Source: Pseudomonadota bacterium (GTDB taxonomy: Bacteria; Pseudomonadota; Alphaproteobacteria; Sphingomonadales; Sphingomonadaceae). Taken from it: a stretch of 64,000 nucleotides of DNA. The stretch spans positions 1,700,367-1,764,366 of the forward strand of contig JBCBSU010000001.1 of NCBI GenBank assembly GCA_039818985.1, read 5' to 3'. Within the stretch, counting starts at the first letter, position 1. The number at the start of each line of letters is the position of its first letter. Positions 8,243 to 35,121 of this stretch are shown piece after piece. Under the pieces are notes generated by a model. That model was not told the origin of the DNA, searched no databases, and saw nothing but the letters and a program-made list of their open reading frames with translations. A program made the translations under genes and the position numbers.

Positions 8243-9364
8243 TCAGCGCTCCGGCAGCCGTGTCAGCGGGTCCACCGGCTTGCGGTCGCGCCGTAGTTCG
8301 AAATGCAACTGCGGTCGGGTGGCAAGCCCGGTATCGCCGGCAAGGCCCAACACATCACCGGCTTTGACCTGTTGCCCGCGCTTCACCAATATGCGGCTGG
8401 CATTGCCATAGGCGGTGACCCAGCCAGAACCATGATCGATCAGGATAAGGTTGCCGAGCGTCGGCACATCATCGCCGGTATAGGCGACAACACCACCGGC
8501 TGCAGCACTGAACCGCGCGTCCTGCTGCATCGCCAGTTCGATACCGTCATTGACCTTGCCGCCGCCCTTATTGCCAAAACGCGAAAGGACGGCACCGCTG
8601 GCAGGCCATTGGAAACGGCCGTCAAAGCCGCTGGGGGCAACGATCGCCGCTGTCGATGCGCGCGCCGGAGCGGCATTCCCCGCAGACACCGCCACGCCCT
8701 CGCGCGCCGCCGGTTGGCCGCCGGTGACAATATCATCTATATCGAGAGAGAAAGCGGCAGCGCGCTGCTCCAAAGATATATTCTCCGGCGGGCTTGCCGG
8801 CTGCATCATTGCGCCATCGGGCAGTTTGAGCCGCTGGCCGATACGCAGGATAAACGGCTCTTCCAGATCATTGAGCACGACAATATCGGCCCAGCGGACA
8901 TTATAGGCGCGGGCAATGGCGATGCCGGTCTCGCCGCTACTGACATTGTGGAACAGACCGGAGGGTATTGTCAGCCGCTGACCGGCATAGATGGTGAAAG
9001 GTGGTTCCAGGCCATTGATCGCGGCCAGCGCTTCCGAACCGGCACCGGTCTTGTTGCCGATGCCGCGCAACGTATCACCGGGTTGTACGATATAGCTGCC
9101 GCCGCTGACCGACACGGCATTGCGACTGACGGGTCGCGCCTCCCATAACGGGCGTGTATCGGCCACTGTGCCGACAGAGGGGTCACTCTCGAGCCGTGGC
9201 GCGGGTGTCGGAGCCGTTGTTGTGGGACGGCCATAGTCGCCCGCTGCCTGGGGGATACAGCCGCTGAGTATGAGAGCGGGACACAGCGCCAGCAGGCAGT
9301 TACGCAGCGAAGCCTGCTGCCATCGCGCTAACGCTATCCGTCGCAAAGCTTGTGCCCGGGCCAT
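8243..9364 (-). CDS. LysM/LytM lipoprotein, NlpD-like amidase activator
   Basis: A 373-residue lipoprotein: signal sequence ending in the lipobox LSGC (Cys ~36), two LysM domains (YIVQPGDTLRGIGNKTG and a second starting HNVSSGETGIAIARAYNVR), a linker, and a C-terminal LytM/M23 domain. The zinc ligands of active M23 peptidases look replaced. The HxGxD-type site reads VNDGIEL (His to Asn, Asp to Glu), and the H-x-H pair reads PQLHFELR (first His to Gln). It should therefore be a non-catalytic LytM factor, like NlpD/EnvC, that activates cell-wall amidases during division. It sits downstream of surE, the classic surE-nlpD order. The loss of catalysis is read from sequence; the activator role is inferred from the family. 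Confidence 0.88.
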   Translation of the reverse strand: MARAQALRRIALARWQQASLRNCLLALCPALILSGCIPQAAGDYGRPTTTAPTPAPRLESDPSVGTVADTRPLWEARPVSRNAVSVSGGSYIVQPGDTLRGIGNKTGAGSEALAAINGLEPPFTIYAGQRLTIPSGLFHNVSSGETGIAIARAYNVRWADIVVLNDLEEPFILRIGQRLKLPDGAMMQPASPPENISLEQRAAAFSLDIDDIVTGGQPAAREGVAVSAGNAAPARASTAAIVAPSGFDGRFQWPASGAVLSRFGNKGGGKVNDGIELAMQQDARFSAAAGGVVAYTGDDVPTLGNLILIDHGSGWVTAYGNASRILVKRGQQVKAGDVLGLAGDTGLATRPQLHFELRRDRKPVDPLTRLPER

Positions 9365-11642: not shown

Positions 11643-13157
11643 TTAAAGGCTGTGAGACACCTCGACCGTGGGCGCTTGCTTTGCCGCCAGATAACGACGC
11701 CGCGCCACCAGGGCTGCGGCTGCGCCACCGAAGAGCAACAGCATCGGCGGTGCCGGAACCGGGGTGCCACCATTGGAACCGCCGCTGGTACCGCCTGAAG
11801 AACTGCTCGAGCTCGACGAGGAAGACGAGCTGCTCGACGATGAACTGGTCGAACCGGTCGAGCCGCTGGTGCCACCGCTGGAAGAGCTGCTCGAGCTCGA
11901 AGACGAGGACGAACTGCTCGACGAGGAGGATGTCGCGCCAAAGCTCGATGAACCACCGGTTGCGCCCGAGGAGGTCGCGCCCGAGGAGGTGCTTGACGAG
12001 CTCGACGAGGAAGACGAACTGCTCGACGAGGACGAGCCGCCGCCAGTCGAAGTGTCACCGCCAGTCGAACCACCACCTGAGGATGAGCTGGAAGACGATG
12101 AACTCGACGAAGACGAGCTCGACGAGGATGAACTGCTGCCGCCGGACGAAGTGCCGCCACCTGTTGACGTGTCACCGCCAGTCGAGGTGCCGCCACCAGT
12201 CGAACCACCACCTGAGGATGAGCTGGAAGACGATGAGCTCGACGAAGACGAACTCGACGAGGATGAACTGCTGCCACCAGTCGAGGTTGAGGTCGAGACG
12301 CCGCCAGTCGAGGTAGAGGTGGAGGTGGAGACCCCACCGGTCGAGGTCGAGGTGGAGACACCACCGGTCGAGGTCGAGGTTGAAACACCACCGGTCGAGG
12401 TCGAGACGCCGCCGGTGGAAGTCGATGTCGAGACGCCGCCCGTTGAGGTTGAGACACCACCGGTCGAGGTCGAGACGCCGCCCGTAGATGTCGATGTCGA
12501 TACGCCACCGGTTGAGGTCGAGACACCGCCCGTAGATGTCGATACACCGCCGGTCGAAGTGGAAACACCGCCGGTGCTGGTACTGACATTGCCCGAGCTG
12601 GTGTTGTCATTGTCGATGTCGATGTCGATATTGATGTCGCCGTCGCCGCCGGTGGAGCCGCCGCCACCGCCACCGCCGCCGCCACCGCCGCCTCCTCCGC
12701 CACCGCCGAAGAAGCCGCCGAAGAAGCCGCCGCCGAAACCGCCAAAGCCGCCGCCGAAACCGCCAATACCACCGCCGATGACCACCGGAATATTACCGCC
12801 AGTGCTGCCGACAGGGGGCTGGGGTGGCAAAGGTGGCGGGGGCAGAATCGGAGGGGGCAGCGGAATGGGTGCAGTCTGTGTCGCCACGGTCACCACAGTC
12901 GGTGCGGCACAGGATTTTTCCGTCCTGACAACACGGCGCACTCGCCGCTTCACCCGCTTGAGTGGTCCCTTGCGATAAACCCGGGCACGCGAAGCCTTGC
13001 GCGGCGTAGCGCGTTCGACGCTCTTCGCGCCGGCAAGCTGCAGCGTCTGGGTCTGCGCTGTGGCAGGCGTGTCCGCGACATGCACCGCGCCGCCGCCAAT
13101 AATTGCACCACCACAGGTGCAGGCGCATAGTTTTGCCAGGGCCATCTTTACAGACAT
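11643..13157 (-). CDS. Large low-complexity PEP-CTERM surface protein
   Basis: A 504-residue exported protein. In order it has a signal peptide (residues 1-35), a basic region (~45-85, many Arg/Lys), a proline stretch, a Gly/Phe block and a run of about 17 Gly. A DGDINIDIDIDND segment and 13 units of VSTSTGG or its extended forms VSTSTSTGG/VSTSTSTSTGG (bases 12273-12587) follow. Several Ser blocks of about 15-20 residues are separated by GGGSTGG-type spacers. The end is a PEP-CTERM sorting signal: TPVPAPP, a hydrophobic helix (MLLLFGGAAAALVA) and RRR. A 16-17 residue tail follows the Arg cluster, longer than usual. Ser codons are mixed (TCG, AGC, TCC, TCA), arguing for selection on the protein. 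An adhesin, matrix or stalk role is a guess; no known domain is visible. Confidence 0.85.
   Translation of the reverse strand: MSVKMALAKLCACTCGGAIIGGGAVHVADTPATAQTQTLQLAGAKSVERATPRKASRARVYRKGPLKRVKRRVRRVVRTEKSCAAPTVVTVATQTAPIPLPPPILPPPPLPPQPPVGSTGGNIPVVIGGGIGGFGGGFGGFGGGFFGGFFGGGGGGGGGGGGGGGGGSTGGDGDINIDIDIDNDNTSSGNVSTSTGGVSTSTGGVSTSTGGVSTSTGGVSTSTSTGGVSTSTGGVSTSTGGVSTSTSTGGVSTSTGGVSTSTSTGGVSTSTSTGGVSTSTSTSTGGVSTSTSTGGSSSSSSSSSSSSSSSSSSSSGGGSTGGGTSTGGDTSTGGGTSSGGSSSSSSSSSSSSSSSSSSSSGGGSTGGDTSTGGGSSSSSSSSSSSSSSSTSSGATSSGATGGSSSFGATSSSSSSSSSSSSSSSSSSGGTSGSTGSTSSSSSSSSSSSSSSSSSGGTSGGSNGGTPVPAPPMLLLFGGAAAALVARRRYLAAKQAPTVEVSHSL
12273..12587 (-). repeat. 13 in-frame VSTSTGG-type coding repeats
   Basis: 105 codons composed of seven 7-residue units (VSTSTGG), five 9-residue units (VSTSTSTGG) and one 11-residue unit. 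Length differences are whole ST dipeptides (6 bases), so expansion and contraction keep the frame. The DNA repeats are imperfect (GTC/GTT/GTA for Val, TCG/TCC/AGT for Ser). Confidence 0.92.
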
Positions 13158-30833: not shown

Positions 30834-32501
30834 TTAAAGCGCCGCCGCGACCTGCTGCAACCGCTGGCGCTGTTCGGGGCGGACAAAGGGCAGGATGATT
30901 TCGATCTCCTGCTTCGCCGCAGCCTTCTCACCATTGGCAATCAGCGCCTGGGCCAGATGCCAGCGTATCTCCATATCCGCCGGTTTCGCCAGCGACGCCG
31001 ACCGCAGCAACTGCAACGCCTCGACCTTGTCGCCATCACTATTGAGCAGCACCCAGCCCAGCGTATCCTGCACCGACGGATCCTCGGGCGCGAGGTCCAT
31101 CGCGGCGCGCGCATGCCGCATCGCCCGGCTTGCATTGCCCGCCATCAGCGCCGCCTGCGCCGCATTGTTGCGCACCAGCGCATTGTCCTGCAGGCCCTTG
31201 CCTATCAATGCTTCATAGATGTTCAACGCTTCGGCGGGGCGGTCCTGCTGCAGCGCCTCCTGCGCTCGCACCAGATCGTCGCCGACGGTATCGAGCTTGG
31301 GCGCTGCCGAGCGTCGTTCCAGCCGTTCGGCAAGTCCGGTATCGCCGGTCTTGCGGGCAATATCGGCAGCATAGCCAAGCAGCACCGGATCGATATCGGC
31401 GCGGTCAATCACCGGGCGTACTGCCTTCATCGCACCGCGTGTGTCTCCCTGCTTCTCCCGGGCCTCAGCCAGCAGGAAGGAACCTTTGACATGGCCGGGG
31501 AACAGCGACACGAAGCGCGACAATCGCTCTTCCGCCTGATTGTAATTGCCCTGTGCCATGGCGATTTCGCCGCTTAGCAAGACCGAGGGCGGATGGTCAT
31601 TCAATGCTGCGCCAGCCTCCTGCATCAACCGATAGGCGGTTGCCAGGTCCTCGCGGGCAAAGGCTATGCGTGCCCGCAGATAGACCGAGACCGGCTGGAT
31701 CGCCGCCATTGAGTCAGCGCGGTCGAGATAGCCCAAAGCCGCGTCATAATCGGCAGTGTCGGCCTTGATCGCGGCGAGGCTGATCAGCGGTGTGACCGAG
31801 TCCGGATAGTTTTCCAGCGCGGTGTCGAATGCCTTTTCCGCCGCGTCCAGATCATCGAGGAACAAGGCCAGCTTGCCCGAGATGAGCAGCGCGTCAAGAT
31901 TGTCCGGTTCGGCTTTGAGCGCGGCGTCAATGCGGCTGCGCGCCTCGCTGATCCGGCCTTCCTCGATGGCGAGCGCGGCGGCCAGTGCCAACAGGTCGGC
32001 GCTGTCGGGATGCAGCGCCAGACCGTTTTCGATACGCGCATTGGCGGCTGCGAAATCACCGCTTTGGAGCAATGCCCGCGCGCCCAGCCGATGCCATTCC
32101 GGTTCATCACTTGCCGGAGCGGCATCGAGCATCTCCAGCGCCTCGCGATATTTGCCCTGCAGAATATTGGCCCGGGCACGCAGCCGTACCAGCGCATCAC
32201 CCGATATGCCGTCACCGGGCTTGACCTTGGACAGCGCGTTTTCCGCCGACAGCCCGTCGCCAAGCTCCAGCATGGTGCGGGCAAAGAGCAGATTTACCTC
32301 GGGTGATGATGGATCCGCCCTGAGCGCATTCATCAGGTGAATGCGGGCATCGGCAAAGCTGTTCTCGGCAAAGGCCTGCTTGCCGGCAGCCCAGGGGTCT
32401 TCGGGTGCGCCAATGCCGCATCCTGCCAGCGTCATTGCGGCGGCAAGCGCAACGAACATGGAGCGGTTGCGTCTGTTCGGCGATATATTCGATCGTGACA
32501 T
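30834..32501 (-). CDS. TPR-repeat lipoprotein, PrsT-like
   Basis: A 555-residue lipoprotein with a lipobox LAGC at about residue 28 and roughly ten or more TPR units. The first units are close to the exosortase-associated PrsT pattern: GKQAFAENSFADARIHLMNALRADPSSPEVNLLFARTMLELGDGLSAENALSKV. Later units are AEKAFDTALENYPDSVTPLISLAAIK and RAMRHARAAMDLAPEDPSVQDTLGWVLL. Full-length PrsT is nearer 900 residues, so this is shorter. It lies next to three PEP-CTERM genes on the same strand, supporting an extracellular polysaccharide/PEP-CTERM connection. I start at the ATG at 32501 because the upstream in-frame codon is TTG. Confidence 0.8.
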   Translation of the reverse strand: MSRSNISPNRRNRSMFVALAAAMTLAGCGIGAPEDPWAAGKQAFAENSFADARIHLMNALRADPSSPEVNLLFARTMLELGDGLSAENALSKVKPGDGISGDALVRLRARANILQGKYREALEMLDAAPASDEPEWHRLGARALLQSGDFAAANARIENGLALHPDSADLLALAAALAIEEGRISEARSRIDAALKAEPDNLDALLISGKLALFLDDLDAAEKAFDTALENYPDSVTPLISLAAIKADTADYDAALGYLDRADSMAAIQPVSVYLRARIAFAREDLATAYRLMQEAGAALNDHPPSVLLSGEIAMAQGNYNQAEERLSRFVSLFPGHVKGSFLLAEAREKQGDTRGAMKAVRPVIDRADIDPVLLGYAADIARKTGDTGLAERLERRSAAPKLDTVGDDLVRAQEALQQDRPAEALNIYEALIGKGLQDNALVRNNAAQAALMAGNASRAMRHARAAMDLAPEDPSVQDTLGWVLLNSDGDKVEALQLLRSASLAKPADMEIRWHLAQALIANGEKAAAKQEIEIILPFVRPEQRQRLQQVAAAL

Positions 32502-32608
32502 GGTCAATGGCTATAGCAGCAAAGACTGAAAATACCCTGAAACATTTGCAATTATAGGGAGATACTATCAGCCACCCCATGCATCATCTTATCCTGTCAA
32601 TGGACACG

Positions 32609-32642
32609 AAAAAAGGCGCCGGAACAGTCTCCGGCGCCCTTT
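32609..32642 (-). terminator. Rho-independent terminator
   Basis: On the minus strand a perfect 9-base stem (GGCGCCGGA at 32615-32623 with TCCGGCGCC at 32630-32638, 6-base loop) is followed by TTTTTT. It ends the transcript of the PEP-CTERM gene at 32674-33384 and separates it from the TPR gene downstream. Confidence 0.85.
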
Positions 32643-32673: not shown

Positions 32674-33384
32674 TCAGCTATATACCCGCTTGCGACGGCG
32701 CAGGCCGAAACCGAGCCCGATCAGTCCCATGGCCATCAGGCCCAGACCTGCCGGTGCCGGAACCGGAGTACCACCGGTCGAACCACCCGGCCTCTCATGC
32801 AGGTTGAGGTTGAAATCCCAGTGCTGACGCAGTGGGTTGCCATATGGGTCGAGCACATTGATCCATGCCGAAGCGCCAAATTTGTCGTTCTTGTCATTGG
32901 CACCCGGTCCGACCTGGACTGTGGTGTTTCCGGCAAACGGGTCGGCGGAGTTCAGGGTAAACACCCGACCATCGATAGTGATGGTGCCCGATCCGGTGGT
33001 GAAAAAGTCGATGTCAGGCGTATCGGTGGCCGCATTGAACGGGCCGCCGCCGGCCTTGTAATCGAAATTGGTGCCGAAAATGGTTTCGAGGAAACCGCCA
33101 AAGCTGAGATCGATCTGGGCGACATTGCCCTGATTGTTGATGGCGCTGCCGGTGAAGGTGGCCGTCTGGTTCTGCTCATCAATGGTGAACAGCGCGCCAT
33201 CCTGCAGCGAATAGCGGCGACCGCAACCCGAACCCAGGCCGCCGGTCCACAGGCCGTGCGAACACTGCCCGGCATTGTTATAATCCTTGGCGTCAAACTG
33301 AATGACGTTGGCCGATGCCATTTGCGGCACGGTCATCGCCATAGCGGCAATAACTACTGCGCCCCTGATAAACTTCTTGAACAT
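32674..33384 (-). CDS. PEP-CTERM protein A
   Basis: A 236-residue exported protein starting MFKKFIRGAVVIAAMAM with a signal peptide, after a GGGAGA ribosome site. The mature part begins NVIQFDAKDYNNAGQCSHGLW and has a beta-rich core, including AQIDLSFGGFLETIFGTNFD and TPDIDFFTTGSGTITIDG. It ends in the PEP-CTERM signal TPVPAPAGLGLMAMGLIGLGFGLRRRKR. Shared core motifs (DxPxIDFF, F-x-x-F-L-E-T) make it a paralog of the next two genes. It ends at the strong terminator at 32609. The function is unknown; a cell-surface or matrix role is inferred from the sorting tag. Confidence 0.92.
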   Translation of the reverse strand: MFKKFIRGAVVIAAMAMTVPQMASANVIQFDAKDYNNAGQCSHGLWTGGLGSGCGRRYSLQDGALFTIDEQNQTATFTGSAINNQGNVAQIDLSFGGFLETIFGTNFDYKAGGGPFNAATDTPDIDFFTTGSGTITIDGRVFTLNSADPFAGNTTVQVGPGANDKNDKFGASAWINVLDPYGNPLRQHWDFNLNLHERPGGSTGGTPVPAPAGLGLMAMGLIGLGFGLRRRKRVYS

Positions 33385-33579
33385 TTTCTGTCTCCCTGTG
33401 GCCGGATCAGGCAAAGCCGATCCCGCCCTTCTCAAATTCTTGCCATAAAGTTAAGCAGGGGGTGTGCCAAAATGCTGAAAACGCCTGTTTTGCGTGATTT
33501 CAAAGGTTAACGCTACGTCGCCAAATCGGTGATTTGTCAAAAAATCCGACGTTTCTACTCGCCGGTACCATTTTTCGCC

Positions 33580-34296
33580 TTATCGCTGGCGCGCGGCCGC
33601 CTTTCGGCGTCGCCAGCCCATCAGGCCAAGTGTGGTAAGGCCCAGAGCCATCAGGCCCATGCCTGCGGGGGCAGGCACGCTGGTGCTGTTGCGCGGTGTC
33701 AGCCTGCCGCTTATGATTACGGGATCCTCAAATCTGGGCTGCGGATTATCCAATGTGGTAAGGCGGCCAAAGATACCCAGTCCTGGAAATGCATCATTGG
33801 CGTTTACGCCAAATTGCAGGACACCGCTTGCTTCGGGATCGAGGAAGCGGTTTATCGTCAATGGCCGTGCCGTGGCTATGCGAATCCCACCATTGACTTC
33901 GGTAAAAAAGTCTATGGCGGGAACGTCATTCACCGGATCATAGAAAAAAGGGCCTGTCGGATCGACCAGGATGTCCGTTCCCAGAACCGTGTCGAGAAAT
34001 CCGCTAAATTCAAGATCAATTTCAGCCGTAAAACCCCTGCGATTGATCAGCGACCCGGCAAATGAACCTGTTCCCGCCTCTCTGTCGACGGAAAATATAA
34101 CATCGCCATCCGGGAAAAACTGATCATTACAATCGAAACCAACAACCGCGACGAGGACCAGCGATGAACATCTCTGGCCATCAGCCGCAATGAAGTCTTC
34201 CCTGCTGCTGACATCAAATTTAATGATGTTTGCCACTGCAGCCGTCGGCCCGAGCAGCGCTGCCAAAGTCAACAATATTGCGGAGGGTCTGGCCAT
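33580..34296 (-). CDS. PEP-CTERM protein B
   Basis: A 238-residue exported protein with signal peptide ARPSAILLTLAALLGPTAAVA and start NIIKFDVSSRED. The core repeats the neighbour's plan: EIDLEFSGFLDTVLGTDILVDPTGPFF, DVPAIDFFTEVNGGIRI. It ends in VPAPAGMGLMALGLTTLGLMGWRRRK. The ATG at 34296 follows GGAAGG. It begins 4 bases after the stop of protein C, so B and C are co-transcribed. A 195-base gap separates it from A, which likely has its own promoter. Confidence 0.92.
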   Translation of the reverse strand: MARPSAILLTLAALLGPTAAVANIIKFDVSSREDFIAADGQRCSSLVLVAVVGFDCNDQFFPDGDVIFSVDREAGTGSFAGSLINRRGFTAEIDLEFSGFLDTVLGTDILVDPTGPFFYDPVNDVPAIDFFTEVNGGIRIATARPLTINRFLDPEASGVLQFGVNANDAFPGLGIFGRLTTLDNPQPRFEDPVIISGRLTPRNSTSVPAPAGMGLMALGLTTLGLMGWRRRKAAARQR

Positions 34297-34300
34297 TAGC

Positions 34301-34966
34301 TTACCTTCCTGTTCTTTTCCGCCGACGATAGCCTGCAAGCCCCATGGCGATCAGACCCAACCCCATCAGTCCAAGCCCGCCCGGGGCCGGGACGTCGGTT
34401 GCGCCGCGTTCGCGCAATGAACCACTTATTTGCGCGAGACCTGCATATTGTCCGGTTGCGTCTGTGAGATCGAACCCGCCAAATATCCCAAATCCGGGGC
34501 TAAACGGAATGGCACCCTCGCCAAATTCCAGAATGCGGTTTGGGGCAAAAACGCTATCGAAACTCGTAACGGTGAAAGTCTCGCTCCCATTTACGGTAAT
34601 GCGACCATCTACAGAGCCAAAAAAATCAATATCAGGCACATCACTGAAGCGATTAAACTCTTCCAGGAAATTTCCGAAAGATAATTCCACAGAGGCCACA
34701 TCACCAAGCCGATTGGTCAGCGCCCCTGTGAAAGTGGCGGTTTGCGCGGCGGTATCAACAACAAACAACGCACCATCTGGAGAACTGAAGGCACTGTCGT
34801 CATTAAAGGGAGGCGCGAGAAGCAGGATAGCATCGCCGCCTGTAGCAGGACTGCTAACCTCATATTCGATGATATTGGCCTGCACCATTTGCGGCATGCC
34901 AAACAGCGCCAACACGAAGAGTGTATATTGTCCTAAATATGCCAGCCACTTTCTTCTTGTGCGCAT
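34301..34966 (-). CDS. PEP-CTERM protein C
   Basis: A 221-residue exported protein. I start at the ATG at 34966 (MRTRRKWLAYLGQYTLFVLALFG), which has AGGGA 7 bases upstream and gives a good signal peptide; an ATG at 34993 is also in frame. The mature start NIIEYEVSSPA and core VELSFGNFLEEFNRFSDVPDIDFFGSVDGRITVNG match its two neighbours but with a shortened middle. It ends in the signal VPAPGGLGLMGLGLIAMGLAGYRRRK. Base composition here is lower in GC than in the flanking ligase and gyrB genes. Confidence 0.92.
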   Translation of the reverse strand: MRTRRKWLAYLGQYTLFVLALFGMPQMVQANIIEYEVSSPATGGDAILLLAPPFNDDSAFSSPDGALFVVDTAAQTATFTGALTNRLGDVASVELSFGNFLEEFNRFSDVPDIDFFGSVDGRITVNGSETFTVTSFDSVFAPNRILEFGEGAIPFSPGFGIFGGFDLTDATGQYAGLAQISGSLRERGATDVPAPGGLGLMGLGLIAMGLAGYRRRKRTGR

Positions 34967-35121
34967 TACATTGTCCCTGAAGAATGACTTCATGTCTACA
35001 CGCAGCACAAAGCGCGCCAGCCGGGCTAAATGAATGAAATTATTATGTTACTGTGGTTTACATGGTTACCCGGCCATTAACCATTGTCAGAATTTTCGAC
35101 AATATGCTGATTCCGATCCTG

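Follow-up and report, generated by a model that had tools for sequence, protein, structure and literature searches.

The 64,000-nucleotide stretch of a sphingomonad genome that we analyzed (hereafter the window) carries on its minus strand three adjacent genes, g1, g2, and g3, and we describe here the family of PEP-CTERM proteins that they encode, the putative control sites in front of them, and the exosortase system to which they appear to belong (Table 1). The original prediction had placed three tandem, exported paralogues in this region, and these are indeed present, all in the same orientation: g3 is followed after 4 nt by g2, and g2 after 195 bases by g1. The N-termini of the three proteins resemble signal peptides, as judged by eye rather than by a prediction program, and the announced succession of a mature start of the N-[IV]-I-x-[FY] type (NVIQF in g1, NIIKF in g2, NIIEY in g3), a strand ending in FL[ED] (IDLSFGGFLE, IDLEFSGFLD, and VELSFGNFLE), a DxPxIDFF motif (DTPDIDFF, DVPAIDFF, and DVPDIDFF), and a VPAP...RRRK tail was found in each of them. 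The DxPxIDFF motif, which had been taken as the shared core, thus holds for g1-g3 but not for the family as a whole, the homologues in two other genomes (G038 and G027) reading MDFY and QDFF, both without DxP.

The relatedness of the three proteins extends well beyond these motifs. Full-length BLASTP comparisons gave identities of 36-38% (E 7e-30, 2e-28, and 1e-25 for the three pairs), and Smith-Waterman alignments of the cores, from which signal peptide and tail had been removed (181, 183, and 160 residues in g1, g2, and g3), gave scores of 195, 209, and 176 against means of 35-38 for shuffled sequences. With 300 shuffles per pair, the z-scores range from 20 to 28 (20.2 for g2-g3; for the pairs with g1, see Table 1), so the alignment of tail-less cores proposed earlier as a check shows a similarity far above chance. 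The paralogues also differ from one another: g3 has a shorter loop and has lost a conserved cysteine pair, and the GANDK...FGGSAW region is altered in both g2 and g3. No Pfam or NCBIfam model was matched over its cut-off by the tail-less cores, and the family is therefore treated as unnamed; no description of it was found in the open-access literature, nor any paper there combining "PEP-CTERM" and "Sphingorhabdus." Our best reading of the sequences is that the core of g1-g3 represents a new, unnamed protein family inside a known system.

Table 1. Genes, sorting tails, and putative control elements of the g1-g3 locus, with further PEP-CTERM candidates of the genome (positions are those of the window unless another contig or locus is named).
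Feature	Position	Strand	Basis
g1, PEP-CTERM protein, 236 aa	32674..33384	-	frame and start; TIGR02595, 19 bits
g2, second PEP-CTERM paralogue, 238 aa	33580..34296	-	TIGR02595, 16.7 bits; core z 27.6 to g1
g3, third PEP-CTERM paralogue, 221 aa	34301..34966	-	TIGR02595, 21.1 bits; core z 23.2 to g1
g1 sorting tail, VPAP to C-terminus	32677..32763	-	TIGR02595 at residues 209-234 (scanned frame, 237 residues)
g2 sorting tail	33583..33678	-	TIGR02595 match at 207-232
g3 sorting tail	34304..34393	-	TIGR02595 at residues 201-227 (scanned frame, 230 residues)
Putative PrsR enhancer before g1, CGTCGGATTTTTTGACA	33535..33551	-	pattern shared with 12 of 13 single-copy homologues
Putative sigma-54 promoter of g1, TGGCACACCCCCTGC	33455..33469	-	65 nt after enhancer
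Putative PrsR enhancer before g3-g2, TGTCGAAAATTCTGACA	35085..35101	-	two-part pattern search
Putative sigma-54 promoter of g3-g2, TGGCGCGCTTTGTGC	35005..35019	-	65 nt after enhancer
Gene of a PrsT-like TPR lipoprotein, downstream of g1 (557 aa with TTG as start; ATG two codons in)	30834..32507	-	TIGR02917, TPR models, LAGC lipobox
Terminator-like hairpin separating g1 from the TPR gene (9 perfect pairs with a 6-nt loop, followed by TTTTTT)	32615..32638	-	own scan
Possible PEP-CTERM gene, 504 aa, Ser/Gly/Thr repeats	11643-13157 (C1:1712060)	-	VPAP/hydrophobic/RRR tail
PEP-CTERM gene, 181 aa, Ser/Thr/Gly-rich, tail VPAPG	L103:6105-6650 (G000:C2:496104-496649)		own enhancer/sigma-54 site

All three tails pass the 16-bit cut-off of the PEP-CTERM model TIGR02595, and none reaches the stricter cut-off of the Pfam model PF07589; the Pfam model is reported to detect just 22% of TIGR02595 instances (Haft 2006; PMC1569441). 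An exosortase elsewhere in the genome, on which the original prediction had made the sorting idea depend, was found: the only exosortase match is an XrtA fused to EpsI (330.1 bits for XrtA, cut-off 208), located about 660 kb from g1-g3 in an XrtA exopolysaccharide (EPS) locus where 8 of the 10 proteins scanned match an XrtA-system model over its cut-off and where an amidotransferase gene lies next to these. The tails could instead be ordinary C-terminal transmembrane (TM) anchors that no exosortase cuts, as their VPAP in place of PEP and the missed PF07589 cut-off would allow, but the TIGR02595 scores of all three, the VPEP tail of nine of the ten homologues from the contig search, the XrtA of the genome, and the PrsR-type sites that precede these genes all speak against this idea, which we regard as very improbable.

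These sites have two parts. Both g1 and g3 are preceded by a 17-nt enhancer-like element, 65 nt, and a promoter of the GG-N10-GC type, and g2, which has no two-part site of its own, presumably shares that of g3. The search pattern, derived from the g1 and g3 sites together with those of the homologues, had no match in 20 random 64-kb sequences; in its exact form it occurs at three places in the whole genome (reversed control, 0), namely, before g1, before g3, and before the PEP-CTERM gene at L103:6105-6650. Across 89 relatives (genus and family) it occurs at 296 places versus 31 for the control, and in the 57 genomes with an XrtA over the cut-off at 189 versus 24. Haft 2006 describes PrsK, PrsR, and PrsT and a two-motif site that precedes 99 of 167 PEP-CTERM genes of proteobacteria and comprises a 17-nt motif with a TTTACA end, a spacer averaging 62.8 nt, and a sigma-54 motif (PMC1569441); the window sites are likened to the wording of that description in the passages cited. 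The corresponding regulators are encoded in the genome, as adjacent genes for PrsK (531 bits, cut-off 300) and PrsR (657.8 bits, cut-off 502.6), flanked by those of an XrtA-system glycosyltransferase and of a 661-aa TPR protein that is weakly PrsT-like (203.6 bits), and as RpoN (410.9 bits, cut-off 277.35). The best reading of these sequences is that g1-g3 are under predicted PrsK-PrsR/sigma-54 control. In four relatives (G039, G064, G072, and G073) XrtA is not over the cut-off, yet each contains 8-14 copies of the pattern versus 0-1 for the control, and the switch may serve an exosortase of another type there.

Matches to the three proteins were counted in 45 of 148 genomes, mostly matches to the tail, with full-length matches in five (G000, which is the genome of the window, G001, G002, G027, and G038). 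The family loci compared here comprise ten from the contig search and those of G001, G038, and G027, i.e., 14 genomes with the window's own, G002 and L016 being counted as one genome; for nine of the 13 other genomes, the comparison covers about 20 kb each. At each of the 13 other loci there is one family copy. The surroundings are the same throughout: in 14 of 14 genomes the PEP-CTERM gene is followed downstream by a PrsT-like gene and then by GuaA, and an AMP-ligase gene lies, again in 14 of 14, on the opposite side, with extra genes intervening in some. The two-part site precedes 12 of the 13 single-copy homologues (in L019, CGGC replaces TGGC), with a spacing between enhancer and promoter of 64-65 nt across the family; the exception is G027, where the enhancer is degenerate and the sigma-54 part is kept. 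In that genome, the family gene (L098, about 8550-9215) contains an in-frame TAG and the adjoining PrsT-like frame is short (341 aa); the locus looks like one in decay.

The g1 protein is 77% identical to the product of the gene at the same place in G001, with which it groups in the tree (93/95). Of the three, g1 is the counterpart of the relatives' single gene. The lone family copy of those relatives has the site (12 of 13) and the PrsT-like gene (13 of 13) with it at this very place, so that g2 and g3 are additional copies; the local duplication proposed from the window alone is therefore supported. The tree places g2 and g3 on very long branches in uncertain positions. Such branches, together with the loss of the cysteine pair from g3 and the changed GANDK...FGGSAW region of both proteins, might mean that g1 alone is functional and that g2 and g3 are decaying duplicates. 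This we judge improbable, given that none of the three frames is interrupted and each tail is intact, that the enhancer/sigma-54 site of g3 is complete and keeps the 65-nt spacing, and that the g3 model is fair (pLDDT 80.9). The slot next to the single copy is variable in relatives: in G001 (L095:9092-12175), a 1,027-aa VIT-domain protein occupies the place of g2 and g3, and at L016:7259-9725 the family gene is accompanied by one more PrsT-like gene and by another PEP-CTERM gene, which is distinct from it and runs on the minus strand. The latter arrangement suggests that the slot gains and loses PEP-CTERM and TPR genes.

The gene downstream of g1 matches TPR models, and a LAGC lipobox can be read from its sequence. 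With TIGR02917, the PrsT model, it scores 261.7 bits in two stretches, below the cut-off of 312.2, and we therefore call it PrsT-like and not PrsT. The terminator-like hairpin between the two genes is absent from the listing of an independent consensus scan, and a similar one was found at 1 of 12 other loci scanned (L095). This layout recalls Aquincola, in which pepA lies upstream of prsT with a putative terminator between them and is transcribed from an RpoN1-dependent promoter with the elements TGGCAC and CTGCTT; according to the sections of that study cited here, a prsT mutant loses its flocs, and extra pepA rescues an rpoN1 mutant, with less soluble and more bound polysaccharide (Xia 2023; PMC9850573). 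In Zoogloea, prsK and prsR mutants are stated to shed polysaccharide, a release that extra PepA overcomes (PMC9012009, citing earlier work).

Given the pepA-prsT-like layout and these results in Aquincola and Zoogloea, we infer that g1-g3, too, hold polysaccharide under PrsKR, and since the same genome possesses both the predicted switch and the anchoring machinery, they are most likely glue proteins of the sugar coat. More precisely, we consider it probable that g1-g3 are XrtA-processed matrix proteins, controlled by PrsKR and sigma-54, that retain the polysaccharide of the XrtA locus on the cell. A PrsK-PrsR signal would make sigma-54 RNA polymerase active at two promoters, that of g1 and that of a g3-g2 operon. 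The products would then pass the inner membrane via their signal peptides and be held there by the VPAP/TM/RRRK tail until XrtA cuts them and hands them to an acceptor in the envelope or the exopolysaccharide. The folded, strand-rich core would form the protein part of a capsule or matrix and, in the manner of PepA in Aquincola and Zoogloea, bind the polysaccharide of the XrtA locus to the cell, and the PrsT-like TPR lipoprotein probably aids the folding, carriage, or placement of the substrates. The surface or matrix role put forward in the original prediction would thus be retained, by analogy with these systems.

Several observations weigh against this proposal. The tails are VPAP, where the canonical form is PEP; in the XrtA locus, the score of the tyrosine kinase falls short of the cut-off (198 versus 230.65), and for a 562-aa protein nothing was matched at 1e-20; and the TPR neighbor stays under the PrsT cut-off, as stated above. 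The site pattern also occurs in relatives that have no XrtA over the cut-off, with 33 places versus 2 for the control in 14 genomes without an exosortase match at 1e-30 and 74 versus 5 in 18 genomes with a weaker exosortase match only. The possible PEP-CTERM gene at 11643-13157 has neither an exact nor a relaxed two-part site, and no PrsT-like neighbor of it was identified. A general pairing of PrsT and PEP-CTERM genes was not found beyond the clade of the family: at loci from other relatives, a PEP-type tail lay within about 1.5 kb of PrsT in at least 3 of 30 cases (our own tail rule, both strands), which is a lower bound because frames at locus ends were missed, four loci were shorter, and one contained unread bases. 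The TIGR02917 survey of the genomes, limited to five candidates in each, did not pick up the short PrsT-like genes of the window's own genome. In Aquincola itself, extra pepA did not rescue biofilm formation and swarming, and plasmid-borne prsK-prsR did not restore the flocs of a prsK mutant, according to the same portions of that report (PMC9850573). Finally, homology to PepA, prompted by a weak match of g3 to the PepA model NF033554 (17.6 bits, cut-off 80; for g1 and g2, no match was listed at E 1), was rejected: an hhalign comparison of 11 PepA-type proteins, one of which (L108) is below the PepA cut-off and was retained, with 15 family members, signal part and tail removed, returned a probability of 0.4% and an E value of 0.14. 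The functional analogy with PepA consequently rests on tail, promoter, and layout, and we would say that g1-g3 "work like" PepA and not that they "are" PepA.

AlphaFold2 models built from 13 family sequences are nearly all strand for the cores of both g1 (pLDDT 79.3, pTM 0.79) and g3 (pLDDT 80.9, pTM 0.81), in agreement with the earlier description of the proteins as beta-rich. Foldseek found no match for either model at E 0.001, and no solved relative was found by sequence (best E values of 0.25 and 0.46, to unrelated molecules). In VIA-align, which warns that a Z under 8 may reflect just a common arrangement, the top match is a designed barrel for both g1 (Z 9.6, 2.5 Å over 107 residues) and g3 (Z 10.4, 2.4 Å over 107 residues), ahead of HtaA (8.1 and 7.9), hemophilin (7.7), HphA (7.5), and HpuA (7.2) for g1 and of HphA (8.7), hemophilin (8.3), HpuA (8.1), TbpB (7.8), and HtaA (7.3) for g3. 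HphA, hemophilin, HpuA, and TbpB are Slam-dependent barrels. Along with a weak HtaA signal (PF04213) in 6 of 13 cores, below the cut-off and with a best E value of 0.067, these alignments raise the idea that g1-g3 are surface barrels of the HtaA or Slam-handle type that bind haem, another cofactor, or a small molecule, their tail serving as a tether only and the link to polysaccharide being incidental. The Z values of the HtaA/Slam-type proteins (6.6-8.1 for g1, 7-8.7 for g3) are, however, equaled by the unrelated DynF (8.4), PsbO of photosystem II (8.0), and BcnB (7.8 and 8.5) and exceeded by designed barrels, Foldseek is silent, the six cores with the HtaA signal probably differ little from one another, and the three neighbors identified with Pfam (AMP ligase, GMP synthase, and a PIG-L-type deacetylase) are no haem genes. 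We therefore consider ligand binding an unlikely main role and read the modeled core as a barrel of a common type, nothing more specific.

A related idea brings in the TPR neighbor. By analogy with Slam, whose TPR part probably acts on TbpB or HphA, g1-g3 might be PEP-CTERM-anchored barrels of the Slam type, with the TPR lipoprotein recognizing the folded core and guiding it across the outer membrane and XrtA anchoring it. Such a role would account for the joint occurrence of TPR and PEP-CTERM genes in every one of the 14 genomes with the family and for the separate PrsT-like genes at two of the three PEP-CTERM loci seen in the genome, and PrsT would then be a dedicated substrate partner and not a regulator. 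The possible PEP-CTERM locus at 11643-13157, without an identified PrsT-like neighbor, lowers the probability of this scenario, which we hold to be a long shot.

A TIGR02595 tail search of the genome returned five places over the cut-off and six under it. Besides g1-g3, the tail of the 504-aa protein encoded at 11643-13157 scores 16.8 bits, over the cut-off; the protein has a signal-like N-terminal stretch, and its gene lies just upstream of that of seryl-tRNA synthetase. The whole protein has no NCBIfam match at E 1, perhaps owing to its composition, and if real it is possibly a substrate outside the predicted switch. The L103 gene, found under the cut-off (C2:496128; 14.1 bits in the genome search, 16.8 for the whole protein), is judged a real PEP-CTERM gene by its two-part site, and a PrsT-like gene (106.9 bits) lies downstream of it. 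At the other five places under the cut-off, no spanning frame of at least 40 aa with a PEP-type tail end was found. A further match over the cut-off, at C2:605901, falls in the hydrophobic C-terminus of an Lnt frame and was taken as chance. The substrates found in the genome thus amount to four clear ones and one possible one. In a distant genome, G417, six PepA-type genes lie within about 16 kb (L105, L109, L111, L113, L114, and L115), a tandem expansion of another PEP-CTERM family.

The functions of exosortase substrates are little known. Here, three of the substrates of a genome belong to one family, and the predicted switch has just three exact sites, so its predicted PrsKR output is small enough to be deleted completely in a single strain. 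The question of whether PrsT is a regulator or a substrate partner is also open to a clean genetic test in this setting.

Compared with the PepA-PrsT system of Aquincola tertiaricarbonis (PMC9850573) and PepA of Zoogloea resiniphila (PMC9012009), the locus shares a PEP-CTERM gene that is followed by a TPR lipoprotein gene, a hairpin between the two, a TGGCAC...CTGCTT sigma-54 promoter, PrsK-PrsR, and an EPS locus; it differs in its three tandem copies, its sphingomonad host, and a TPR protein under the PrsT cut-off, as well as in cores without detected homology to PepA. With the XrtA/PEP-CTERM system, as outlined in the cited passages of Haft 2006, it has in common exosortase A, EPS genes, PrsK, PrsR, the two-motif cis site, and the short tail, while it departs from it in the 64-65-nt spacing, in the VPAP tails of the window, and in the small number of substrates, genomes with the system averaging more than 10 (PMC1569441). 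EDSAP-1, XDP1, THxN, and other NCBIfam PEP-CTERM families resemble g1-g3 in tail type; the matches to them lie mostly in the tail and far below the cut-offs, and none of the cores passes one. The HtaA haem-binding domains and the Slam-dependent barrels are similar in their strand-rich models (Z 6.6-8.7) but tie with unrelated barrels, have no sequence or Pfam match over the cut-off, and use another anchor. Taken together, these comparisons describe an ordinary, known system that has a new substrate family and a small predicted regulon.

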